Assembly (NCBI GenBank): GCA_002189035.1
Contig: NEEC01000009.1
Coordinates: forward strand, 2,666,001 to 2,730,000
Direction of reading: 5' to 3'
DNA length: 64,000 bases
From: Utricularia gibba
Taxonomy: Eukaryota; Streptophyta; Magnoliopsida; Lamiales; Lentibulariaceae
Shown: positions 12,503 through 54,276 of the stretch, in pieces
How positions within the stretch are numbered: the first letter of the stretch is position 1
How the letters are laid out: every line of letters starts with the position of its first letter
Translations under genes and position numbers: made by a program
The notes under the pieces: generated by a model
Seen by the model: the letters and a program-made list of their open reading frames with translations, nothing else
Told to the model about the DNA's origin: nothing
The model's database searches: none

Positions 12503-13474
12503 TCAATCCTCAGAACTCGGGATGGGCTCATGGGAGTGGATGATGAAAAACACTTCATACACGATTCCCGCGAGCGCACCGCCGATCAGTGGCCCCGCCC
12601 AGTAAATCCAGTGGTTTGCCCACTTGGATGTCACGAGAGCCGGGCCAAACGCCAGCGCGGGGTTCAGGGCCGCGCCGGTGAAAGCTCCGCCTGCGAGGAC
12701 GCTTGCTCCGACGATCAGCCCGATTGCCAGGGGACCCAGGATTCCGATCTCGCCTTTCTTAGGGTCCACCGCGGTGGCGTAGACGGTGTACACGAGCGCG
12801 AATGTAAGAACAATCTCGAAGACGAAGGCGCTCCAAATCGACACGCCGGTGACTGCGAACGTGGGCACTTCCTGTGAAGTTGTAGTTCAATAAATACGTA
12901 TTATTAAAAAAAGTTAAATACGTAAAATACTCAATGCCTATTAATAAAAAAAGGCATTATTTTTCCAACAAAATGATATTTCAAGCTAAATATTAAATCA
13001 TTTTATTACAAAAAATATATATTTACTAATATCACAGATCAGATATTTGAATAATAATTAATTTTTGATAAGTTGACGAACCTGGCCACCAGTGGTAAAC
13101 ACGAGGAGGCCGGCGCCGGCGACGGATCCAAGAAGCTGAGCGATGATATACAAAATGCCGCGGAAGAAGGTGACGTTACCGCCTACGAAGAGGCCGAAGG
13201 TGACCGCAGGGTTGACGTGGCCACCGGAGACGTTAGCGCTGACGGCCACAGCAACGAAGTAGCTGAAGGCGTAACCGATGGCGGAGGAAACGAGGCCGCT
13301 TCCGGTGAGCTTGCTGTAAGCTATCCCGGAGCCGGAGGCAGCGAAGACGAATATGAGGGTGCTGATGAATTCGGCCACGGCCGCCTTCACGACTCCGGGC
13401 CGCCGGAACTCATCGCGGTTCCCGACCGCGATGCGGCGAAGCGGGACGTTGAAGTAGTCGTTGCCGCCGGGCAT
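12503..13474 (-). CDS. TIP1-type tonoplast aquaporin, copy A (altered selectivity filter)
   Basis: Six-helix major intrinsic protein of the tonoplast, moving water and small neutral solutes. Exons 13082-13474 and 12503-12871 give 253 residues, with the single intron after the TTGGQ stretch as in TIP1 genes. Both NPA boxes are present (Asn88 and Asn201). Two aromatic/arginine filter positions differ from the usual TIP1 set: helix-2 His is Tyr68, and the residue after the second NPA is Leu204 instead of Val. The paralogue next door keeps His and Val. The N-terminus carries about ten extra residues ([10 protein letters not shown]) that the neighbour shares. A TATA-like element lies about 70 bases upstream. 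The start is the ATG giving MPGG, equivalent to copy B. Confidence 0.92.
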
Positions 13475-13542
13475 TATGGAAATGGACAAGGATCGATCTG
13501 CGGTATGATATCGTGTGAGTGGAATGAAGCCATGAGTCTGCT

Positions 13543-13550
13543 CCTTATAA
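13543..13550 (-). promoter_or_regulatory. TATA box of TIP copy A
   Basis: On the minus strand the sequence reads TTATAAGG, about 70 bases before the start codon. The identical CTTATAAGGAGC context occurs at the same distance in front of TIP copy B, which supports a core promoter element kept since the duplication. Confidence 0.6.
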
Positions 13551-14534
13551 GCATGTGCACTACTCCCACTTTTATTAAAATATATTTTAAAAATATAAAT
13601 TATATCCAATAAAATAATACTGATAAAAAAATCTAATATGATAATGTGTTACTGAATTTGAATCCATTTAAATTATAAATGTATTAAAATTCATTATTAT
13701 TGATAAGAAATACGTAGCTGTACATTTTCATATAGTTCTTTTAAAATATCATTTTCATTATTCGTCCAATAAATTGTTTTAAATTTCGACGAAATTTTGT
13801 CAAAATCTCAACAAATTTTGGATTTCAGATTTATTCGGTATTACGGAGATTTGTTTATTTGTTCGTAATTTCATTTTTGGAATGAAGTTTGGAATTCGAA
13901 GATTAGATCCAAGTTTCTACTTTAGAACAAGCATTTTCGACCTAAGTAGAAATAATGTTACGGGGCGACAGGTACACTTGCTGCATTTGAACAAATGGGG
14001 CACATGGTATGTATGATTCGCCATGCTTAGCTGGGTGTTAGTACTTATCCATTACGCATGACGTGGCTGCACCATCCATTCCTGCTTAGCTGGATCACGA
14101 TATCTATCTCTTTCATGCTCTTAACCAATAAACACCTGCCACGTGTAAGTCTCGGATCAATTACCCAATCATTGGAGTTGTGCGGCCCGTATTGGCCCAT
14201 GGCTTTAATGGGCCGGGTCAGCCGTACAACCCAATCCAAGTTAAAATGTGTCCATAGCCCATAGGGCACGTGGCTAGGTCAGGCCTCCTCGTACCATTCT
14301 GACAGGCTCTGCCACTTACCAGTTCCCAGATAGCTCTCCATGACTCGTTTTTAAATAGAAAATACCCTAATTTATAATAAACTCAACTTATTAAATAATT
14401 AAATATTAATAAATATTACTATGACCAGTATATATACTTTAATATACTATATTTATTTTAATTACCCAGCAAAAATGCTGCTACACACAGGGGATGAAAA
14501 CACAAGAAAGGCGACGAAGGAATCAGCAGAAGGT
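13551..14534. promoter_or_regulatory. Spacer between TIP copies, with two G-boxes
   Basis: Upstream region of TIP copy A and 3' flank of copy B. Perfect CACGTG cores lie at 14140-14145 and 14267-14272, about 670-800 bases before copy A, and could respond to ABA or light through bZIP or bHLH factors. Between them an inverted pair of GGCCCAT/ATGGGCC motifs spans about 14193-14215. The part 13560-13760 is AT-rich. No coding exon was seen. Confidence 0.45.
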
Positions 14535-15521
14535 TTAAGAACGAGGGGGAGAAAGCAACGGGAAAGAAACAAACCGCAAGACGGCAAAAGAGTCGACACC
14601 AAACGAAACCTGGGGTTCTTCATCAGAACTCCGAGAGGGGCTCATGGAATGGCTGATGAAGAATGCTTCATACACGATGCCGGCGAGGGCGCCGCCGATC
14701 AGAGGTCCGGCCCAGTAGATCCAGTGGTTTGCCCATTTGAAAGTCACGAGAGCAGGACCAAAGGCTACAGCGGGGTTCAGGGCTGCCCCGGTGAAAGCGC
14801 CGCCGGCGAGGATGTTCGCTCCCACGATCAGACCTATTGCCAGGGGTGCCAGGATTCCTATTTCACCCTTCTTAGGGTCCACCGCGGTGGCGTAGACGGT
14901 GTACACCAGCCCGAATGTTAGAACGATCTCGAAGACGAAGGCGCTCCAAATCGAAACGCCGCTGACGGCGAATGTCGGAATTTCCTGCGACGGTTTTAGG
15001 GATGAAAATGAATGTAAACAATATATCATTTCCAACCGATTGCTTAGCTAACAGTAGATTCAGTATTAAAAAGAGCAGTGGAAAAAAGATGGTTCTATAA
15101 GTTTACTTACCTCACCGCCGGTGGTAAAGATGAGGAGGGCGGAGGCGGCGACGGATCCAAGAAGCTGAGCAATAATATAAAGAAGGCCACGGAAGAAGGT
15201 GACGTTACCGCCGACGAAGAGGCCAAAGGTTACGGCGGGATTCACGTGGCCCCCGGAGATGTTAGCTCCCACGGAGACGGCGACAAAGAGGCCGAAGGCA
15301 TGAGCGATGGCGGCGGCGACGAGGCCTGTAGGGGAGGCGGGGCCGTTTCCGGTGAGCTTATTGTATGCTACACCGGATCCGGACCCTGCGAAGACGAATA
15401 TGAGCGTGCTGATGAATTCAGCCACCGCCGCCTTCACAACTCCTGGCTGACGGAACTCCTCGCGACTCCCGACGGCGACGCGACGGAGGGGGACGTTGAA
15501 GTACTCGTTGCCGGAGGGCAT
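14535..15521 (-). CDS. TIP1-type tonoplast aquaporin, copy B
   Basis: Tandem paralogue of copy A, same strand. Exons are 15111-15521 and 14984 downward, with the same intron position. It keeps the standard TIP1 filter: His in AHAF of helix 2, Ala before and Val after the second NPA (TGAALNPAV). As read, the frame runs on to a stop at 14535 and gives an unusual tail after HSMSPSRSS. One extra base at the CC of 14646-14647 would instead yield the family-like ending HSHEPLSEF with a stop at 14623 and 257 residues; copy A has CCC at the equivalent place. The shorter ending is therefore the better model, and the read-through tail is probably an artefact of a missing base. Confidence 0.9.
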
Positions 15522-15580
15522 TTTCGGAAGGGCGTAGGGTTTGCTGAGTGGTGTGTGAGGGATGAGGCTACGTGCGCGCT

Positions 15581-15589
15581 CCTTATAAG
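15581..15589 (-). promoter_or_regulatory. TATA box of TIP copy B
   Basis: The minus strand reads CTTATAAGG about 65 bases before the start codon, matching the element in front of copy A in sequence and spacing. Confidence 0.6.
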
Positions 15590-16316
15590 CTTGCGTTCTG
15601 TTGCCTTGTGATGTTTCATTTAATTTTTAAAATAAAAAAAATTGTATTTTTTTTACATAATATCACACCAATTCATTTTAATGCGAAATAATAATTTTAT
15701 CTTATTATTATTCTTAATTATTGAGAAGATAAAATTGGTTGCGGATGAGCAACGTTACATATGCATCACGTGACAAAAAGAATCCCGAATCGAAATAATT
15801 CAACGAACAGAGTGGGGCCAGAAGCCGTGGCAAGGCAACATAGTACACTGTCCTGTTGTCGGGTTGGGTGGAGATGTCCAATCGCCACTCGAAACGTGGA
15901 CGCTCCAGATCATTTTTACTATTATTAAAGCTATTTAATCATTTTTTCGAATATACCGTTTGGGAATTTTTTTATTATTTTCAGAATTTTAATTAAATTT
16001 GACACACCTTCATGGTCTCTTGACTACTACCAGAACACAAGTGAAATAGAGCAAACATAAAAGCGTTTTAAAGGGCAACATGGAAGAGGATCCCTAGCTT
16101 GAGGGATTCATCCACCTGATAAGCAACAGCCCCACAAACTGTCAACAATATGGAAAGCTTCCTGCAAGACTGTGATCACATCTTTTCAATCATACAGCTT
16201 ATTCGCATTTGATCAGCAACTGCAAGTTGCTTCTGGTGAAACACAGGGGTTAACTGCAATTTGCCTAATCAAGGCATCCCAGCTTCATAGAAATGGGGCA
16301 AGAGTAACTAAGGAAG
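15590..16316. other. Spacer between TIP copy B and the small membrane protein gene
   Basis: AT-rich distal promoter of TIP copy B (15600-15720 and 15920-16000) and, nearer 16316, the 3' untranslated region of the next minus-strand gene. No exon or repeat recognised. Confidence 0.4.
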
Positions 16317-32576: not shown

Positions 32577-35513
32577 AGTAAATTTAGGGTTAGTGGCCTA
32601 CTGGCCTAGGAGAAAGTGTGCGGTCGTGGCATGGCATCAATCACAATGTTCGCTACGCTACAACGCTTTTGTACACCATAGCCCTGTTACTTAATTGCGT
32701 TTTCCTAATTAATTTATCCAAATCGTAACACTACTAACCACAATCCTATAAAATATAATTGATTACATGGAATCATCCCCATCTTATGCAGCACCGTACT
32801 GTAACATTTTTGAAACGGAAAAAATTGCACGAATAGTTTTTATTATTTATCTAAGTGATATAATTGATTTAGAAATAGTATTTTAAATCATATTATTTTA
32901 AAACCGTTTATAATTGATCCCGATTGGTTGAAAATCGGGTAAAAATGAAAACAATTGGAAACAATTATTAGAGATATAATTAATAATGTAGAAATAGTTT
33001 TGCACAACGCCCATGAGGCTAGTAAAATTATATAAAAAAATAGTTTCAATATTTTTTGGGAACACTCTAGTTCTCAAATGTAAAAATATATTACATTTCT
33101 TATATAAATTATTTAATTGCATTATGTGTGTTGACTATAGTAAGTTTTTTAAATATTTAATTATATATTTATTTTTATGTTTTAATTGGGTTCAATAATT
33201 TTAATCTTGGTACTCTACTACTTAAATATTGGACCAAAACCCAACCACATAATTCCTTGGGGTTTTTGTGCCCACTCCTACTTGCCCTATGAATAGCGCC
33301 AGAAGCACACATTCCCTCTTCCTTCGTTCTTGTCCTTTCATGTTTTTTTTTTTTTTTTTTTTTTTTTTGCCGTAAATCTCTCTCCATGGAGCTCAGACAG
33401 GCGGCAGCTGCGAAGGTGGGTGTCTGCACCCGTGTCCGATACTTGATGCTGCTTCTTGTAGTCGCAGCCATCACCGTCTTCCAGTTGGATCTCCTTCGTG
33501 ATTATCCAGAGCGCACCCTTTTCGATTACGCGGCTGTGGACGTCGACGAGCCGAGGTTGAGGATGGAAATCATCGAGTTGATCGGAAGGAAGGCGTTTGG
33601 AAGGGAGTTGGGCGGCAAGTGGCGGCCCTCTGAGGATTCCATTGTGAGCTTCCGGAGTTATCTGACTGACTGGGCGGAAAGGAAGAGGTTCGAACCAGGC
33701 GTTATGATGGAGGAGACGGCGGCTCTGTTCTTCCACGGAAGGCATTCCACTGTGCTGACGAATCGCACGGCCAGGTTCCGAAGCTGCGCCGTCGTGGGAA
33801 ACAGTGGAATCCTCTTAAAGCATTATCACGGCAGCTTCATCGACGCCCACGAAATCGTGATACGCCTGAATTACGCCCCGACCCGGCGGTTCGAACGCCA
33901 CGTCGGATCGAAGACGAGCGTCTCCTTCATCAACAGCAACGTCCACCACTACTGCTGTGCCTTCCGATCCATTCCTTACTGCAAGCGAAACTTCCAGGAC
34001 GCCGCCACCGTCATGTACATGTGCCAGCCGATCCATTTCTTCGACTACCTCCGCTGCAATTCCACAGAGCACCCGCTTCTCATCACGGACCCAAGATTCG
34101 ACACGCTCTGCGCCCGCATCGCCAAGTACTATTCCCTGAAGCGGTTCGCGGCTGAGATGGGAGGGGATCTGGCGGAATGGGAGGAGACCCATGGCGGCGC
34201 CGAGTTCCATTACTCGTCGGGGATGCAGGCGGTGATGCTGGCAGTCGCGATCTGCGAGAAGGTGAGTGTGTTTGGGTTCGGGAAGGCCACGAACGCGCCG
34301 CACCATTACCATGATCGGCAGAAATCGGAGCTCGCCCTTCATGACTTCCGGGCTGAGCATGATCTGTACGAAGATTTGAAGGAGAGGCCATGGAAGGTAC
34401 CCTTCATTTCTCCCGACTTCCAATTTCCTTTATTTGAAATTTATTAGTTTTTTCAAAATCAATTTTAATTCGGGAATTATTGTAAATAAAAAAAATATAA
34501 AAAATGTCTTGATTATTTTTTTCCAATTCAAAATGTGATTTTCTTAATATTATAATCAATTAAAATACAAACGCCACCAAAACATAACATTCGAAAAAGC
34601 GTGGACGCGGACACGGACACGGACTCGAGCTCGGGCACTTGGTTTCGTAGTTTCCGAAAGCGTTTAATCCTCATTAAAAAAAGGTAATTCCCGTCAAATC
34701 ACATTGATTAGCACAAAAGACGCGTTAATCCTGGCTAATTTTTTATTCGCCAATATTCAATTTTATGATATTAAAAAAAAGAAACCCAATTTTCCAGGCC
34801 CAATTATGAGCGGCGAAGACTTTCTATTTTTTAATTAATTATTATTTCAGTCTATGGCAATTTAGTATCTGAGCCTGTAACTTGCGCTATTTTGACTTGA
34901 AATTTTAGTTCACGTTTTCTATTTATTATAACCATTCTTTTTATATGCTTATGAACACAACTTTATGGTTTTATGTTATCCTTTTTTTGGGAAAAATTAT
35001 CATACAAGATTAAGAGTGTATTGTTATTTAATCACATCTTATTCCCCATCCATAATCAATGTGATATATTTAGGATATATCTTAACAAGTTGATGTTCTT
35101 AAACTTCCCCCCCCCCCCTTAATTTGTTAGTAATTATAAATAAAATGTTATACTCTTAAAATGAGAATTTCTGATCCCGCTATTTCTATTTTTCTAAAAA
35201 GTCTATTAGAATTGAATGATTCAACGTGATTCATTCATAACGACCTTCGAAACATTATACCGTATGAAACATGAATCATTATAATTTGAAAAATATCATG
35301 TTAGAAACCAATTGTATCAACGTGATGAATGAACTTCAAAACAGTATAAGGTGGTCAGCGTGAATCTTCGCATCCATCGTGGTAGACGACATTTATATTA
35401 CATATTTTTAGTAAAATATTCAAATTTTATTTTATTTAAATAATTTAATTTTGAATTTCGACGGTATGAATCATAGACCTGAGAGGGGCTGAGAGTTCCG
35501 AAGGAAAGATGTA
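32577..35513. repeat. Tandem segmental duplication, unit 1
   Basis: About 2.9 kb that is repeated directly downstream. Matching landmarks (unit 1 / unit 2): AAATTTAGGGTTAGTGG at 32582 / 35513; AACGCTTTTGTACACCATAG at 32661 / 35588; the GT29 coding region 33386-34447 / 36301-37361; GTATCTGA-CCTGTAAC at 34867 / 37907; and TGAATCATAGACCTGAGAGG at 35467 / 38205. Non-coding parts differ by many substitutions and small indels, so the event is not recent. Unit 1 carries an intact gene copy. Confidence 0.85.
33386..34447 (+). CDS. GT29 sialyltransferase-like protein, copy 1 (intact)
   Basis: Single-exon, 353-residue type II Golgi protein of CAZy family GT29. Plants lack sialic acid in quantity; characterised plant members include GALT29A, a galactosyltransferase of arabinogalactan, and pollen-tube proteins such as MGP2/SIA1, so sugar transfer onto cell-wall glycans is the likely role. 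A signal anchor (YLMLLLVVAAITVFQ, about residues 20-34) is followed by a stem, sialyl motif L (CAVVGNSGILLK...EIVIRLNYAP...VGSKTS), motif S (FHYSSGMQAVMLAVAICEKVSVFGFG) and the motif VS-like HHYH. The ATG follows a run of about 25 T at 33344-33368. The coding sequence is much more GC-rich than its flanks. Equivalent to the broken copy 2. Confidence 0.9.
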   Translation: MELRQAAAAKVGVCTRVRYLMLLLVVAAITVFQLDLLRDYPERTLFDYAAVDVDEPRLRMEIIELIGRKAFGRELGGKWRPSEDSIVSFRSYLTDWAERKRFEPGVMMEETAALFFHGRHSTVLTNRTARFRSCAVVGNSGILLKHYHGSFIDAHEIVIRLNYAPTRRFERHVGSKTSVSFINSNVHHYCCAFRSIPYCKRNFQDAATVMYMCQPIHFFDYLRCNSTEHPLLITDPRFDTLCARIAKYYSLKRFAAEMGGDLAEWEETHGGAEFHYSSGMQAVMLAVAICEKVSVFGFGKATNAPHHYHDRQKSELALHDFRAEHDLYEDLKERPWKVPFISPDFQFPLFEIY

Positions 35514-44561: not shown

Positions 44562-45760
44562 TCAGGCGATGCTCTTCCCAAACAGGCTCTTGCGTATCTG
44601 AAGCATAACAAGAAGAACGTTAGGTTTTACTATGCCAACAGTTACTTAACTGAAAAAGGTGCTACTTTGGGACTAAACATCATACAAGTTGTTTGTGACG
44701 CATACCTCAGGCAGCTTTTTACGGAACACGACTTCCAATCTGGCATCAAGACTGTTCTCGTACACGATTTTCCCATCCCTAGATGCCAAAACCACGCCTC
44801 CAGAACTACAGGGTAAAGAAACAAGAATCAACTTTTAACTCATATGGCTCTCTCCCTGCCGAACTACCTTCAATGAGCAATTACAATTCTTTCTGAAAAC
44901 TAGTAAGTTCAGGCGTTCACAGGATTCTTCTTACCAGGAAGGGCCATGATCGTTGTCTGACGAAGGGGCTGGTGGAAGGTTCACTCCATCGACTATGATT
45001 TCAGGGGTATGGACATTTGCCTTCCCAGCATACTCATCTTTGGCTCGCTGCAGGATTGACTCTACCAATGATATATCCTCTTTACGACACCGCAGCAATA
45101 CAGAGGGCTCTCTGAGCCTCAGCAGACCCTGAGACGCACAGATGCATGTTTATTTCTAATCGAACCAAAGCACTTATGCTTGAAGAATCCACAATTTACA
45201 CCGATGTCGAGCACCCTAAAAAGTAGCAACCTGAACAACAAGATCCTTGAGAAGATGCCGGTAGCTGTCTTGGTCGCCACTAACCTTCAGCAGCTCATTA
45301 GATGCAGCATCCTTCATTTCGTTGACTAAATCATCCTGTGCTTGAAGAACTCTTAGTCGAGAGGCATTCAATTGCATTGAGTAGTCACTGTGGACAGCAC
45401 GCAAATCGATACATTCAGAAATCAGCGATCATGAGAAATGCACAGATCAACATAATCGGAAAACAGCGTTCAATTGAAAACCTTACATTTTCTTCCGCAC
45501 TTCGACTTGCTTATCTTTCCGCTCGTACTCTTGCTTGATCTTCTTCTTCTCAGCTTCCACTAGCTGCAGCTTCTCGATATTGAATTCCTACAACGAAACG
45601 AAGAGAATCCGTTCAGATCCTTAAACAAACCCCGATTCTGATGGCGGCAGATTCTGACTTCTTCAGCGGAGACGGAAATCTCGTTGGCTTTCTCCTCCGC
45701 CTCCTGGCGGATGAAGCGGACCATCTGGTGGATCTGCTTGGAGACATCGACGTCGTTCAT
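44562..45760 (-). CDS. VHA-E: V-type H+-ATPase subunit E
   Basis: Peripheral stalk subunit of the vacuolar proton pump. Six exons: 45659-45760, 45487-45587, 45231-45387, 44935-45128, 44706-44805 and 44562-44597, adding up to 690 bases or 229 residues, the usual family length. It starts MNDVDVSKQIHQMVRFIRQE, continues with EFNIEKLQLVEAEKKKI and DYSMQLNASRL (the long stalk helix), then LLRLREPSVLLRC, CSGGVVLASRDGKIVYENSLD and the ending IRKSLFG. The last two exons are short; without them the protein would appear to end early at HGPSW. The final residues after IRKSLFG (KSIA) differ from the common ending. Intact. Confidence 0.94.
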
Positions 45761-46346
45761 CTTCGGATCGGAATCAAGTCCCCTTGGAATCGCAAATTCT
45801 CCCCACGACGGCAAGAAAGGGGAAGGTAAAGGTAGTCGATCACTCGGAGTCGCTAGCACGTTCTAAATATATACAAATGCCCCTTTTTGGGCGGAGAATA
45901 CGTGTCCGTTTTAATCCGAAATGGGCCCTTTTTCCTTTTATTAAATCCAATATATTCCGCATATTTTTCATAAAATCCTGGTCTGACTTGATCATTTTTT
46001 AGGATATTATTTTTTTATTTAAATATGTTCATATCTCCATGTATAACTAATGTGAAATATTATCTAAATATATTATCATTAAATAATAAATAATAAATAT
46101 ATATATTATTGTTTATAAGTGAAGTTATTTGTTTCAATGTACATATTTATAAAATGAAATTTATTTTATTTAATTATCGTATATATTATTTTTATATTGA
46201 AAAAATGATTTCATTTTATATCACGTAAAATACATTCCAAAATCCAAAACACCGCTTCCTCGTAAGGTGTTATTATTCATAGAAGTCGAAGGTGTCATTT
46301 TTTATTCCCGTGATAAATAAACGTAGTGCACAACGTGCTGCGCGCT
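45761..46346. other. VHA-E promoter and CLE 3' flank
   Basis: The first 130 bases are the VHA-E leader. The stretch 45990-46230 is extremely AT-rich. A CACGTGC-like AACGTGCTG occurs near 46332. No exon. Confidence 0.4.
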
Positions 46347-46817
46347 TCATGGGCACGAGGAGTTCGGGTATTGACAATTATGCAGAGGGTTGGGCCCTCC
46401 CGGAACCTCCCTAAGCTCCCGCATCGCCCTCAAAATCTCTTCATCGTAACTCGGAACCTCCTTCGCCTCCTCCAACAACTGTTCGCTCCATTTACGAGGA
46501 TATGAAAAATAAGCTCGAGGTTCTCAGGAATTTTCGCTATCAAATACAGGCGAAGATCATGTAAATTGTTTGCATATTACCTGGGAATGAAGAAGCTGCA
46601 CCTTGTGTACGTCTCTGGTGCAGTCTGCAAGTAACATTCGAAATTAGCGAAAGTGCGGGAATCAAATCGGAAAAAAAAATGATGATCGATCGGAACGGGC
46701 GGTTTCCGTTCAGGTGGTGATTCGATTCCACTGACCGGCGACGTTGGTGAAGACGAGGCTGATTAGAACGAGGAGGCAGACAGCGGCGGCGGCCTTGGAA
46801 ATCATATTAACCGCCAT
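46347..46817 (-). CDS. CLE signalling peptide precursor (CLV3/CLE40 gene structure)
   Basis: Small secreted peptide hormone gene hidden by two introns. Exons: 46736-46817, 46581-46624 and 46347-46478, joined in phases 1 and 0, 258 bases or 85 residues. A signal peptide (MAVNMISKAAAAVCLLVLIS) is followed by a variable region and, near the C-terminus, the CLE dodecapeptide REVPGGPNPLHN, fitting the family pattern R-x-V-P-x-G-P-x-P-L-H-N. Eight residues follow it. Most CLE genes have no intron; the three-exon form with a tiny middle exon is that of CLV3-type genes. Such peptides act through CLV1/BAM-type receptor kinases in meristem or vascular control. A second gene of the same build lies 1.2 kb upstream at 48026-48482. 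Confidence 0.82.
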
Positions 46818-47450
46818 TTTAATCCAAATCGGTGCTTTCAGATGAACTGCGCGTCGGGATATTTATAGACTGAAAAATATCCCGAATAACGGTAAATTGA
46901 ATGCGCTGTAATGTTTTCTTATTTTCAAAATATTTTCAACGTTGATGGCGAATCTGGGAAACGGATGGTAAATTCAAAAAAAAAGATATTTTTAATAAAT
47001 ACGAAAATTGCCGCATTCGTATTCGCAAAATTAGTAATTCAACATTTTTTTAAATAAATTAACACGAATATCCAATGAAATAAATACATGACAAATTACT
47101 ATATTGACCAAAAAATAAATATGGCAATTTTTAAGTAGTAGGGTGTGAGGTTTTGGTAAGGAGAAATAACTCCGTAAGATTCACCTTTTTTGGTCGATCA
47201 TTTACAAAAGCGGTTATAGATTATATATTTTAAAATAAATAATAAAATTAATTAAAATTAATATTAAAATTCACCTGTTGAGTGGGACCCATGAAATTTG
47301 TATGACAGTTGTGTTTGTGGGAGGGTGGTTGATTAGGTCTTAATCGGCGCTATGGTTGGGGAGCTTGGGCAACAAGGGCTGATCATGGTGGTGCCGTAGG
47401 CAGCGGCGATGGCGTTTTCTTCTTGCGGGAGAAGGCCGTGGGTCGAATCG

Positions 47451-47960
47451 AGCTTGGGCCGCCTTTCTAGTGGCAAGGTGTTTGAACGCATTGAATCGGA
47501 TTCGGAATTAAGCGTGGGTTCCCTTTGATGTCGCCATCCTTGAGGCATCACCGTGCGACCTTCTTCTCATGTGATGGTGGGGACGGCGGTTGCTGACATG
47601 TATTCGGAATGGGGTGCCTTTGATTTGGGTAAGATTATTATTTGATCACATGCGTTTGGCAGCAGTGGTTTCATGGAATGCGGTGGGGTGAGTTTGAAGA
47701 AGCAGTTAACATGTTCGATGAAATGCCCGACAAGCAATTTCAACATGCTGCTATCGAATATTTTATGAAGCCATTGGAGGTTTGGTTGGTGCGGGAGATA
47801 TGAGGATGAAGATGAAGGCTCATGAGGTGCAAAAGAAACCAGGAGTGGCGTCATTTAGCAGGGGATAAATATCATCCTGACACCGTTTGCGTTCACTTTG
47901 TTCTGAATCACCTGTTGGGTGAACTTAGACAACTTGCCTTCCTGCATGGCACTACTACTG
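47451..47960 (+). pseudogene. Decayed PPR protein gene fragment (E-motif end)
   Basis: Pieces of a PLS-class pentatricopeptide repeat protein appear in order but in different frames: SLGRLSSGKVF (47451), VMVGTAVADMYSEWGAFDL (47571), FDHMRLAAVVSWNAV, EEAVNMFDEMPDK (near 47693), MKMKAHEVQKKPGV (near 47805) and AGDKYHPDT...LNHLLGELRQ (to about 47940), which is the E motif. Stops and shifts separate them and several repeats are missing, so no product is possible. These proteins normally edit or process organelle RNA. The fragment lies between the two CLE genes, on the opposite strand. Confidence 0.65.
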
Positions 47961-48025
47961 TCAAAACAAATCCTAATCCTAGAAAGTTTTCTGCTGCGGG
48001 TGCCAGATGCAGAACAGTTAGTCCC

Positions 48026-48482
48026 TCATGGAACTCCTGGCTTCTGAGGATCCTGTCCAGCATGGTGCAACGGGTCAGGCCCTGCCGGAACTGTCCTCAG
48101 CTTTGAGCCCTCTGCAATCTCCTTGTTCAAACCTCCACCATAACGGCTCTTCAAAGCCATCTTCCTCACTTCCAAGAGCAACTGAAAGGTGTACGCACCA
48201 TTAGGTCCCATATGCGCGTACAAAGAGTAAGTAACATTTTTTTTTTTTTTGTCTAATGCACGTCCTCCATTATTACCTCCCACGCAGAGCTTGCAGCTTG
48301 TCCACACTCCTGCTGCACTCTGTGATAACAACATCATTACATCTTGTATAAAATAAGAAATGCTCTCATGTTTTTAACACAGATAGCTAACCAGCAGCCT
48401 CACTGAGGAAGAAGAAGCAGACCAGCACCATCAACAAACAAGGAGCAGCAACCACAAAACCAGAACCCCCGTTTCTCGCCAT
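48026..48482 (-). CDS. CLV3: CLV3-like CLE peptide precursor
   Basis: Candidate orthologue of CLAVATA3, the stem-cell-restricting peptide of the shoot meristem. Exons: 48392-48482, 48277-48317 and 48026-48181, phases 1 and 0, 288 bases or 95 residues (Arabidopsis CLV3 has 96). Signal peptide with the core PCLLMVLVCFFFLSEAAG; CLE dodecapeptide RTVPAGPDPLHH, one residue from the RTVPSGPDPLHH of CLV3; and a Pro/Gln tail of 12 residues, as in CLV3. The acceptor of exon 2 is ambiguous (two AGs two bases apart); only the second closes the phase to exon 3. The exon pattern matches the CLE gene at 46347-46817. Predicted to be perceived by CLV1/CLV2-type receptors and to repress WUS. Confidence 0.83.
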
Positions 48483-49397
48483 TGGAACAACCTGAGACAC
48501 TGCGTAGAGGCCAAGCCACGAGGGAGGACGCATTTATAATGGGAGGAGGAAGCAACAAAAGAAGTTGGGGAGAAGGAATGATTGCATGAAGCAGCCATTT
48601 CCAAGTGAGTTCAGGGGCTATGAAATGACACAGAGGGTTTTTTTAGCACAAAAGAAGGGGGACTGAGGAAACGTTAATGATCATCCACTATTGGGCGTGG
48701 ATTGCTTTCTGGTCGGCGCCGTTCAGGAATGGATGGGCCGGGGGACTGTCACATGACATGGATGACGTCGTTGCTATGAGTTCTGAGGCATATGCACATT
48801 GCCACTGCAGTTGCTTCCTGCCTAACGGTCATGTCATAGGGATCTCCTTTCGCCCCGAAAAGGAGTTGCGTACTTTTATACAAATATATTAGATATTTTT
48901 AATACTTTTTTTAAAAAAATATTTATTTTTTATTTTTAAAATTTTTTCTGAAACGACATCACCTATAGTCGTCCACCGTGCCGTACATCAAGCGCCAGTG
49001 GGACAAAAGGTATGATGGAGACTGGTGAATAACAAAAACTTTCTCATACCTTGTAAATGTATAAGAAAATGATATATCTAGGAGGGCATTGTAACATATA
49101 ATTAATGATTTTGAATTATTTGTATTTAATAAATATATATTTAAAATTATATTTTATTTAGAATATATGTATAAATTAATAGCTTTTAAAAATATTTTTA
49201 AAGAATTTATGTGAATATTTTATAAAATAACACGTGAATTAGAAGATCTCTGCGTCTGCGCCGCCTTGCTGTTCTTGTGCTTGAAAATTTGTGCGTCGGG
49301 AGAAAAAATCCAAGAAATCGTTGATTCTTTGGGAAGCGTGCAGATTTGGATTCGGTTGGGGTTGGGGTCGATCGTCAGAGCTTCTGTTGCTGGTAGT
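48483..49397. promoter_or_regulatory. Divergent region between CLV3-like and NHL genes
   Basis: About 900 bases upstream of both genes. The first 200 bases are the CLV3-like leader and core promoter. The region 48890-48950 and 49080-49215 is AT-rich. TGACATGACATGG and GATGACGTCG occur near 48750. No coding exon seen. Confidence 0.4.
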
Positions 49398-50150
49398 ATG
49401 GCGGAGCGTGATGGACCCGTAACTGGGTATCCGGTCCCTAATCCCAACGGTTATGCCCCGAATCCGCCGCCGCCCGCCGCTTACCCCTATGCGGCTCCTC
49501 CTAACAACGCTTACTACAACCACCAAAGCAACAATCCTTACTACCTTTCGGAGCCGTATAATGTCCGCCGCACCGTCTGGCTGCGCCGTGTACTGGCTTT
49601 TTTCATCGCCGTAGTTGTGGTTTTCGCGGCTATTTTGTTCATTGTGTGGTTGGTCCTCCGGCCTTCCGTGCCGCAGTTCCGGGTAAACTCATTATCGATT
49701 TCGAATTTCACTTTGAGTAATGACTCCTTGGTATCCCTCTCCTCGGATGTCAATCTCACAGCCCGAAACCCTAGCAAGAGGATGTCTCTGTATTATGATC
49801 AGTTGGAAGCAAACCTTATTTACGAAGCATGGTCACTTTCAGAAACAATGGTATCCCCATTCTCGCAGGGTACTAGAAATGTGACTTCTTTTTCAGTAAG
49901 CTTCGCGGCGGCGGGCAGTTTTCTTGATGTGTCTGCGGCGCAGAGGGTAAACAGTGATTTGAGAAGCAATCAACATGTTCGGCTTGATTTGAGGATTTTA
50001 TCTAGAGTTCAATTTCAAGCTAAGGCTTTTAGAACTAGATGGAGGTTATTGAGGGTGTTTTGTGGGGATTTGACAATACAATTTACACGCACTAACAGTA
50101 GCTACTCCGGCTTCTTGGTTAGCCCAATGCAATGTCGTGTGGAGATTTGA
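49398..50150 (+). CDS. NDR1/HIN1-like (NHL, LEA_2) membrane protein
   Basis: Intronless, 250 residues. A Pro/Tyr/Asn-rich cytoplasmic N-terminus (NGYAPNPPPPAAYPYA) is followed by RRVLAFFIAVVVVFAAILFIVWLVL, a membrane helix, and a LEA_2-type extracellular domain with the usual RPxxPQFRV and ARNPSKRMSLYYD motifs and several N-glycosylation sites. NHL proteins act at the plasma membrane in defence and plasmodesmal functions. I start at MAERDGP (49398); an in-frame ATG at 49266 would add 44 residues with no family match. Resembles the NHL10/NHL3 type; subgroup not settled. Confidence 0.88.
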   Translation: MAERDGPVTGYPVPNPNGYAPNPPPPAAYPYAAPPNNAYYNHQSNNPYYLSEPYNVRRTVWLRRVLAFFIAVVVVFAAILFIVWLVLRPSVPQFRVNSLSISNFTLSNDSLVSLSSDVNLTARNPSKRMSLYYDQLEANLIYEAWSLSETMVSPFSQGTRNVTSFSVSFAAAGSFLDVSAAQRVNSDLRSNQHVRLDLRILSRVQFQAKAFRTRWRLLRVFCGDLTIQFTRTNSSYSGFLVSPMQCRVEI

Positions 50151-50649: not shown

Positions 50650-52297
50650 TTACATTTTCATGCATACAATTGGAACATTGATCACAACATTCTTGATGCT
50701 GCCATTTTTGTCATCTTCTTGTCTACTTTTTTCTCTGAAGTTCGCGAGTTCGCTGAGCTCCTTCACCGCTTCGCCAATGCTCTCCACGCTGCTAACTGTA
50801 TCGATCAGCATCGAAGCAACTCCGGCTAAGGGCGCAAATTGGAGCAGGTTGTTGTGACGATTCTCCGAAATCAAGAGGGTTCCTATGTTTTTGGCTGCTG
50901 TCTCCATACTACCTGTTTGGAGACTCGGCCGAGTCATCGTCTTCAGTGCCCGGGCAGCTTCTCTCAGCGCTTTCGCTGCCTCGTTGCTCACGCTTGTAAA
51001 CGCGTCTTGGAACGGATCTTGTATTTTTATTTCCTGCTGTCCGCGAGAGTGTTAGTGCTTTGTAGTGGTCAAAGGTGGATTTTTTAGGGTAATTGTCGAA
51101 GAAGGGGGTTTCTGGGATTCCATACATGAGTTTTCGAGTTGAGGAAGATGGTTAGAGCGTCGACTTTGCGGCCGCATTCCCTTGTAAGATTTCCAATTTT
51201 GAGGTACTGCTGCCATGGATGACAGTACTTAAAGCGTCCATGACCCGGTTCCCATCTTGCGAAGTTCGCCTGAAATTTACAGGTCACAGTCATGTTTCTC
51301 CATGGAATTGTAACTCAATAATTTTCATTTTTTCACACACCAAGATTTCTTCTTTGTTTTTGGAATCTGCTAGAATGCTGGTTATGGTGCTAACTGACTG
51401 TTTGCTCTTCTCTGTTTGTCCTCCTGCTTCTGTTGTTGTGAGGCAATCTGAAAAAGGAGGTTAGAAGAAGTTTTTAAGAGCATGCCATTATGTTTTAGAA
51501 TAGTTGTGCTTTTATTGTAGGCTTTGGAGTGAACCTTCCAGGGAATTCGCAATTTTGTCGATGTTTTTAGCAATGAGATTCTGAAGATCTTCTCCAGCCC
51601 AAACGGGACTAACAAAGATGGCCACCATCAGGCAAGTTGATGCACCAACTAGTATTGTGCATAGCCTTTTCTGAGCCAACATAAGTACATCATCTGTTCT
51701 GTAGCCTGATATGGAAATGAGGCAGAATGTTAAGATGAACATCAGCATTCCATAGTCGTATCTGGCTTTCACTTGGGGAAGGAATCGCAGGAATGTCGAA
51801 GTTACAGCTGCAGGAGTGAGGGAATCATATCTGAGCTTCCGATAGGTTCTAAAGTAACTTTCTTGCCTGTGTTACTTTACCATGTATGAAGACGAATAGT
51901 GCACTCAGTAAAGGTTCACCAGTCTTCCCTGAAAGAGTGGCCAAGTGATGAGCTCCGATGCCTAAGCCTCCGGCTACTAATGTTGCAAGTCCCTTATTTA
52001 CTCCTTTTCCCAGTGTTGCTCCTGGAAGATAACAAATGAGGAACTGTGTTTGTTCTTTAGGATTATTGATGCAGAATGTGATAGTATCATACCGACGGAG
52101 TACTCAAAGATGACCACAACTGTGATTACAGCCCATATTGAAGAGTCTCCAAAGTTGTTGTAGAATGGCTGAAGGTAATAGAACAGAGAAACAATTGTGA
52201 GCGCTAGGCCAACTTTAAATGAATGGATCAATCTCCTTGGATCCTCCTTTGCTATCTTGACCATTTGATGCACTGATTCATTCATTTTAGTCTCCAT
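50650..52297 (-). CDS. Aluminium-activated malate transporter (ALMT) family channel
   Basis: Anion channel of the ALMT family, conducting malate or other anions across the plasma membrane or tonoplast. Six exons: 52093-52297, 51881-52021, 51535-51807, 51341-51447, 51126-51269 and 50650-51033; 1254 bases or 417 residues, all phases closing. The N-terminal half has six membrane helices with SFKVGLALTIVSLFYYLQP, IWAVITVVVIFEYSVG-ATLGKG and LMFILTFCLISISGYR; the C-terminal half contains the family block FARWEPGHGRFKYCHPWQQYLKIG. It is most like the ALMT8/10 type by recollection. The C-terminal tail is short. No break. Confidence 0.92.
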
Positions 52298-54276
52298 GCT
52301 TGCGTAGATTCTTGCTTTTCTACTCCCTGAATGTCCATCTCAACAACTCAGTCTTCAACTCTACAACAAATTGAGTATCTGGCTTTGCTATGGGATTCTA
52401 CAAGCAGGCAACTTATATATATGAGTGGAGTCACTCCAGCATATGGCCCAAAGAATAGATCCTCTACGTATTGCCAGTTCCATACGAAATTTGCTGAAGA
52501 TGTGGTAGGAATGGCACATTCTCCCCACAAATGCATGGTAAAGGTAAAGATAGGTTAGTACCACTTGGTGATTACATTCGCCTAATGGAGGACAGTTTCA
52601 CTCAAAACTCAGTGATTTGGTCACTTTTTCTCTAGCTTGCCTTTGTATTTCCACCCTGTGTTGAAACGCTCATACCAACTATTGCGCATTGATGTTTAGT
52701 CAGAAACAAGTACAAGAGTGCTGACTGACATCAGATGAGATTTCTTAAACTGGGAGTTACTTTCATCCCTTTTTTACTCCCACTTTGTGTGGCCTTCATT
52801 TGCTAATTGCTTCCAGGTAGGCAGCTTTAGGTATGGAAGATCTTACACATATGGAACTAACTCCATTTGTCTGGGAACGAGACATTCCATGTCATGATGA
52901 GCTTTCAGTAGCTTTTTTCTTGTTGTGACTTTTCATTTGAGCCCTTGGTTTGGAATACCTCCAGCTACAGCAGCATATATGGATTTGATTTGATTCTCAT
53001 TACACCATTATCTCCTGTCCCAGCCATGCATATCACCCTTTTCTCTTTCTTGTCCAGCATTGAGGTTTTTAGACAAGTGATGTTACACCCAACAAACACA
53101 TCACCATTGCAGTTTTAAGTAGAATGAATGAAGGATTCTGGCATTATCTTCAACACATATATTCTATTGCTGTATTATTTCCCAGGACATGTACCTCATG
53201 GATGGATTCTCCAGACAGGGGTGGAGGCAGGGATGGAACATCATGAACCTGATCCTCCTGCTCAGTTCGTGGAACACATGAATCCACGGATGCCCCCCCC
53301 TGCGGTTCGTGCATCTACCGTTGCTTTTTCTTGTGTGTGTAATCTGCAGATGCCCGGCCTGGTTCCAATGGTAATGCCGTAGAAGGATCTAGACATCTAG
53401 TCCTAAGCATTCAGTTCCTGTGGATGGGATCCATCAAGGTAAACGCACTAGTAGCTCCTTCCTTTCCATGGCATGCTGATATTCTTCTTACCAGCAATAC
53501 CAGTTTATGTTAGCAACAGATGCTTTGGCTGTCGGAGTATCGGGTCTGATCGGTACTAGGTTTCATCGGTTCCGGAACCGTCGGTTTCGATTATTATGAT
53601 TCATTAGTTAATCAACTCTTTATATAATTTGAGTAAATTACTGATTTGAAATTATGTTTAATTTTATATTTAATTAGATTCAAATATACTATTTTAATTC
53701 TAGATAATTATTTTTTATATAATATTTTATAATATATTAAATTGTAAAAAAAGTGTAATTTAAAATTATGAATATTTTTAAAATGGATTATTTAATCAGT
53801 TTGGATTTTATTTTTTAAATATTTTTCGTAAACAAAATAAATTAATAATTAAAGAGAAGAAATTGCAGCATAGTAAATATTTTCGAGTAAAGAAATGTGC
53901 TTTAATCCTAATAATTGAGATGCAGGCGTGGACTCCTTTCATTGGTAGAGGCCAGGGTGGCAGTAGGGAGTGTCGTTTTTATTTATTTATTTAATTGGTT
54001 TTGGTGTATTAGACAATTACCGCGGAGCCCCTGTGGGTCCCGTGACTGTAGCCGTTTTAACTGAAGAAACGGAAAAAGTGAAATTACCCCTCGCGACAAA
54101 GTTGAAAGTCGGCACTCTGTAATTTCTTCTTCTTTTTGTTGTTGTTTTTGCGGATTCTTCTTTTTCCATATCGGTTTTTCGAAGATCCGCTCTTCTTCCT
54201 CCTTTTTTCTCCAAGGGATTTCACCAGTTTGGCTGATTGGATCCGAATTCACATACCGGTAAAAAAAAGATCGGAA
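52298..54276. promoter_or_regulatory. Long divergent region between ALMT and receptor-like kinase genes
   Basis: About 2 kb. Most shows no coding signal; 53620-53900 is AT-rich. A GC-richer island at 53190-53400 is listed separately. The last 200 bases are the leader of the kinase gene. Confidence 0.4.
53195..53392 (+). other. Unrecognised exon-like island
   Basis: After a TTTCCCAG acceptor-like site, an open frame runs through MEHHEPDPPAQFVEHMN, past an eight-C run (53292-53299), to a second AATCTGCAG and the ending MPGLVPMVMP with a stop at about 53382. The Pro/Met/His-rich composition and splice-like borders look like the end of a gene, but no upstream exon was found and I do not recognise it. 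It may be a gene remnant. Confidence 0.3.

Follow-up and report, generated by a model that had tools for sequence, protein, structure and literature searches.

The CLV3 locus of Utricularia gibba probably consists of an old tandem pair of three-exon CLE genes, a CLV3-class gene (gene A) and a class-switched partner (gene B), that was later copied together with its chromosome segment. The pair was studied in a window of 64,000 nucleotides (contig NEEC01000009.1, positions 2,666,001 to 2,730,000 of the forward strand), in which an earlier sequence-only reading had placed two intron-containing CLE genes on the minus strand, 1.2 kb apart. The coordinates, the strand and this spacing (A ends at 48026 and B starts at 46817) were re-derived, and the two CLE motifs and the phase 1 ends of both first exons are present. 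The features of the pair, in window positions, are as follows.

48482-48026, minus strand: gene A, CLV3-type, motif RTVPAGPDPLHH
48392-48482, minus strand: gene A exon 1, signal-peptide-like, ends in phase 1
48277-48319, minus strand: gene A exon 2 as bounded by the strong splice sites, 43 nt in the assembly
48026-48181, minus strand: gene A exon 3, with motif RTVPAGPDPLHH at 48062-48097; not in frame with exon 2 in the assembly
48483-48793, minus strand: gene A promoter region, of which about 250-280 bp are conserved with the homeolog A' and not found upstream of gene B
46817-46347, minus strand: gene B, three exons by splice-site scan, CLE motif REVPGGPNPLHN
46736-46817, minus strand: gene B exon 1, signal-peptide-like, ends in phase 1
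46581-46624, minus strand: gene B exon 2, 44 nt
46347-46478, minus strand: gene B exon 3, CLE motif REVPGGPNPLHN at 46377-46412

The splice-site scan bore out the three-exon plan that had been proposed for gene B, including its 44-nt second exon. Read exon by exon, the predicted product is MAVNMISKAAAAVCLLVLISLVFTNVA-DCTRDVHKVQLLHSQ-LLEEAKEVPSYDEEILRAMRELREVPGGPNPLHNCQYPNSSCP, which has the hydrophobic N-terminus and the motif near the C-terminus (REVPGGPNPLHN) that characterize the CLE family. The acceptor of exon 3 was picked via homology with the homeolog B', and AGs located 9 and 12 bases downstream of it keep the frame and score slightly higher. The motif of gene B contains Asn at positions 8 and 12, as in CLEs of the GPNPLHN type, whereas CLV3 has Asp and His at these positions. 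Judged by its predicted sequence, gene B is a paralogue of CLV3, and its peptide, lacking Asp8 and His12, is not a CLV3; the earlier description of B as changed at positions 2, 5, 8 and 12 relative to CLV3 was correct. The motifs of gene A (RTVPAGPDPLHH) and A' (RKVPAGPDPLHH) fit the CLV3 class R-x-VPxGPDPLHH, and the hydrophobic core encoded by exon 1 of gene A has a mean Kyte-Doolittle value of 3.24.

The CLE-motif pattern was searched across all 516 contigs of the genome (100.09 Mb), giving 11 exact matches versus 0 for a reversed control. One of the matches, on contig C411, lies in A', an intact three-exon CLV3-type gene with the motif RKVPAGPDPLHH and a 44-nt exon 2 (GCSRSLDRLQFLRGE). A' is followed within 1 kb, on its downstream side, by another CLE gene with three exons, B' (...ECSRNVEELGVLRSQ-ILLEAKRIAAEGGYRAEKGRDWSSELRLVPGGPNPDHN; CLE motif RLVPGGPNPDHN). 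The B' protein ends at its CLE motif and has an Asp at motif position 10, which is unusual among CLE peptides, and the activity of this peptide is uncertain. The window and the C411 region are collinear, the gene for V-ATPase subunit E included. A dispersed third three-exon CLV3-like gene, gene C (C1:3862829; RRIPGGPDPLHH), is intact as assembled, and its 20-kb surroundings have no gene-level similarity to the window except CLV3 itself. The splice-site scan shows that two introns upstream of the CLE domain are conserved in A, A', B, B' and C, and that exon 2 is 44 nt long in A', B, B' and C. Pfam searches with A', B and C returned nothing useful, and a scan of viral contigs was negative for relatives, in keeping with a plant gene.

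The sequence-only reading had proposed that a CLV3-type gene with introns was duplicated in tandem and that the peptide then diverged, a proposal upheld by the shared intron positions and phases, the propeptide homology and the homeologous pair on C411. From signal peptide to motif, the A-B alignment scores better than all of 2000 shuffles, and each alignment among the propeptides of A, A', C, B and B' is better than at least 1997 of 2000; none of these five could be convincingly aligned to six intronless CLEs of the genome. The peptide of gene B is similar to peptides of intronless CLEs in this genome, RLVPGGPNPLHN (L006, L009) for example, as would be expected if B were an unrelated CLE gene that came to lie beside CLV3 by chance. 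However, gene B shares intron positions, phases and exon 2 length with A, A' and C, and has significant propeptide homology to these genes and not to the intronless CLEs. The propeptide shuffle test largely refutes chance co-location, and the idea of an unrelated gene is considered extremely improbable. Because the A/B arrangement recurs on C411 and the A-B propeptide homology is absent from the intronless CLEs, this arrangement is not due to chance.

In a protein tree, B and B' group together with 97% bootstrap support, and A and A' group weakly (58%). This pairing, combined with the collinear arrangement of the two segments, indicates that the tandem duplication is real and, as read from these sequences, older than the segment duplication. 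The A and B partners share 35-40% identity, and B and B' share 47%. The NG86 Ks is approximately 1.3 for B-B' and 0.35-0.48 for A-A', estimates that rest on 74-94 codons and show little beyond faster change in B. The divergence between B and B' is high, and the probable common origin of the two copies rests on synteny, on the intron plan and on homology over a short stretch.

The model of gene A requires revision at exon 2, for which the sequence-only reading had given a length of 41 bases (48277-48317). The acceptor of that exon (ATCACAGAG followed by TGCAG; exon start 48317) scores 0.6 bits and the acceptor two bases upstream (TTATCACAG followed by AGTGC; exon start 48319) scores 7.7 bits, both on a rough hand-set plant matrix. 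The resulting 43-nt exon reads ECSRSVDKLQALRG and is clearly homologous to exon 2 of gene B (DCTRDVHKVQLLHSQ), and the frame of the 41-base exon is conserved in none of the relatives. The 41-nt exon is an artefact of holding the frame open and hides an apparent 1-nt deletion. Exon 2 ends with GGGGAG in the 44-nt exon of A' and with GGGAG in A, from which it follows that the assembled gene A lacks one base; a single G, from a G4 run, separates it from the 44 nt found in A', B, B' and C. In the assembled sequence, the canonical splice product of gene A shifts frame and terminates with ...LRGSCSWK at a stop in exon 3 ahead of the CLE motif. Consequently, secretion signal and motif, the combination that defines the CLE family, share one open reading frame in A' and do not in gene A as assembled. 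More generally, frame-forced exon models may conceal frameshifts in long-read-only assemblies.

The frameshift may be a long-read-only assembly error at a G homopolymer, with gene A in truth intact, to which we assign a probability just short of even. The change is of one base within a G run, and the same G4-to-G3 difference breaks one member of a second gene pair in the window.

33293-34444, plus strand: first of two tandem GT29 genes (sialyltransferase-like, PF00777) of very high identity
36214-37400, plus strand: second tandem GT29 gene, frameshifted

The frame of the second gene is broken by one G4-to-G3 difference (run at 34219 versus 37134). In addition, several GRAS genes of the assembly occur in abutting out-of-frame pieces, with split domains at, for example, C375:2186284-2187382, C213:2030372-2031486 and C255:3202628-3203745. 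The source assembly was likely generated with PacBio HGAP and Quiver, a method we infer (PMC5793159), and there is precedent in tomato, where a 1-nt frameshift in SlCLE31 was identified as an assembly error by Sanger sequencing (PMC9670457). Also consistent with an error is the observation that the rate of evolution is no higher in A than in A'. The breaks in the GRAS and GT29 genes could, however, also be real. The GRAS break falls at a common profile position (approximately 136-140) in five or six paralogues, and pattern searches for a G4 error in the GRAS genes matched nothing; these searches do not support a G4-to-G3 error like that of gene A as the source of the break.

Alternatively, gene A may be a recent pseudogene with a true 1-nt deletion, CLV3 function being supplied by A' (with C) and gene B being kept; this is a serious possibility, if a somewhat lesser one. 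The assembled frameshift strips the CLE motif from the canonical product, A' is intact, the intronless histone genes of the assembly look intact, and it is common for one homeolog of a pair to be lost; pseudogenised tandem CLV3 copies have been described in Solanum (PMC11964936). Against a pseudogene, there is no excess of protein change in A (synonymous to nonsynonymous changes of 4:7 on the A branch versus 5:9 on the A' branch), the tree branch of A is shorter than that of A', and there is no other lesion in A. With no excess protein change and no second lesion, any loss of gene A would be very recent. Rescue of the frame through the weak acceptor is the unlikely member of the three explanations.

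It was also suggested that the two genes could form a dosage or compensation module, a suggestion that found no support here, as the promoters of A and B are unrelated, their peptide classes differ and A is possibly non-functional as assembled. A blastn match at 48385-48771 overlaps the promoter region of gene A, and a short core of the A/A' promoter also occurs upstream of gene C. When 600 bp upstream of the genes were compared, A and B had no similarity above the shuffled background, while A and A' did exceed it; the upstream similarity between B and B' was not significant. Since the promoters of A and B are without shared sequence, A and B may well be expressed differently. A module of two intact genes, with A using the 41-nt exon 2, would agree with the intact state of both motifs and with an open frame under the 41-nt choice, and tandem CLV3 copies gave back partial compensation in Solanum (PMC11964936). 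Such a module would nevertheless need the weak acceptor (0.6 versus 7.7 bits) and a 41-nt exon 2 frame conserved in no relative, and its two peptides would differ at positions 2, 5, 8 and 12 under unrelated promoters, and it is regarded as very unlikely. The different peptide classes, together with the absence of a detectable common promoter, favour divergence of A and B over dosage or compensation.

The genes that flank the pair bear on the identity of the locus.

49398-50147, plus strand: LEA_2 family gene (PF03168), head-to-head with gene A
50653-52300, minus strand: ALMT (aluminium-activated malate transporter) gene, PF11744 on three ORFs, exons within this span
44700-45761 (approximate), minus strand: V-ATPase subunit E gene, PF01991 on joined exons, downstream of gene B

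Arabidopsis CLV3 (At2g27250) has an ALMT and a LEA-type gene on its two sides, and the ALMT and LEA-type neighbours of gene A may be a further likeness to CLV3. A literature search on the Arabidopsis locus numbers found nothing confirming this neighbourhood. Based on its peptide, intron plan and neighbours, gene A looks like the CLV3 orthologue. Other observations were made along these segments. The V-ATPase subunit E homeolog on C411 looks degenerate (approximately 7700-8450 of C411:208001-218000), and the window copy is intact. Between A and B, at approximately 47300-47900 on the plus strand, a stretch resembling a decayed PPR gene fragment was seen by eye (EEAVNMFDEMPDKQ and VADMYSEWGAFDLGK, in two frames); Pfam on a short piece of it did not confirm the assignment. 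Two adjacent tandem aquaporin-like (TIP-type) genes were likewise recognized by eye, from ORF translations, at 12506-13648 and 14538-15626 on the minus strand.

The history favoured here for the locus would begin with an ancestral three-exon CLV3 gene that was duplicated in tandem. Copy A would have retained the CLV3 peptide class along with its promoter, while copy B would have retained the intron plan and the secretion signal with a GPNPLHN-class peptide and an unrelated promoter. The pair would then have been duplicated with its chromosome segment, leaving both partners recognisable on both segments. By analogy with the family, the precursor would be secreted and cut down to 12-13 residues; the peptide would carry modified proline and bind to a CLV1/BAM-type receptor. 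The most likely product of gene B is a secreted CLE peptide, which would act in another place or with another CLV1/BAM-type receptor preference than CLV3; the Asn8 and Asn12 of B versus the Asp8 and His12 of CLV3 lead us to expect such a difference in place of action or receptor preference and not a dosage back-up. If expressed, the pair would illustrate how a stem-cell peptide gene can yield another signal at its own locus, in a plant with an atypical root, stem and leaf plan. A more far-reaching proposal, which we regard as speculative and rather doubtful, is that the locus has long been a two-peptide locus, in which a CLV3-class gene and a class-switched CLE gene, each with its own promoter, were both kept through genome duplication, and that one segment has recently lost its canonical gene and retained the divergent partner. 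Such a history, if real, would mean that stem-cell signalling has been rewired in a plant whose body plan is reduced and rootless.

Gene A is similar to CLV3 of Arabidopsis and tomato in that it has the same peptide class, with a PAGPDPLHH core in common with tomato. Its introns precede the CLE domain, as has been reported for CLV3, and CLE40 also contains introns (PMC4195864). Tomato CLV3 is Solyc11g071380, listed as SlCLE15 (RGVPAGPDPLHH; chromosome 11, 52.9 Mb), and no other tomato CLE is listed within 3 Mb of it (PMC9670457); the partner gene therefore either postdates the divergence from tomato or has disappeared in tomato. In contrast to tomato CLV3, that of U. gibba has a diverged tandem partner, and gene A is frameshifted as assembled. 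Arabidopsis CLE40, which opposes CLV3 and acts via BAM1 (PMC8594942), and tomato CLE9 are diverged CLV3 paralogues like gene B, but neither is in tandem with CLV3, and gene B differs from both in its GPNPLHN core. As a positional analogue of tomato CLE9, the dispersed gene C (RRIPGGPDPLHH) is better suited than gene B. Literature searches on the exact peptides, and on tandem CLV3 genes in Utricularia, gave no relevant result. In spiny Solanum, as here, there was local duplication at the CLV3 locus, and one copy was pseudogenised in some lineages; those tandem copies are recent, with identical coding sequences in S. prinophyllum (PMC11964936). The U. gibba partners, unlike those of Solanum, have different peptide classes and promoters and are older than the segment duplication. 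Tandem CLV3 copies are thus already known from Solanum, and an old, class-switched partner is new: earlier tandem CLV3 duplicates were studied as recent compensation events, and here an old pair has outlasted the duplication of its segment.
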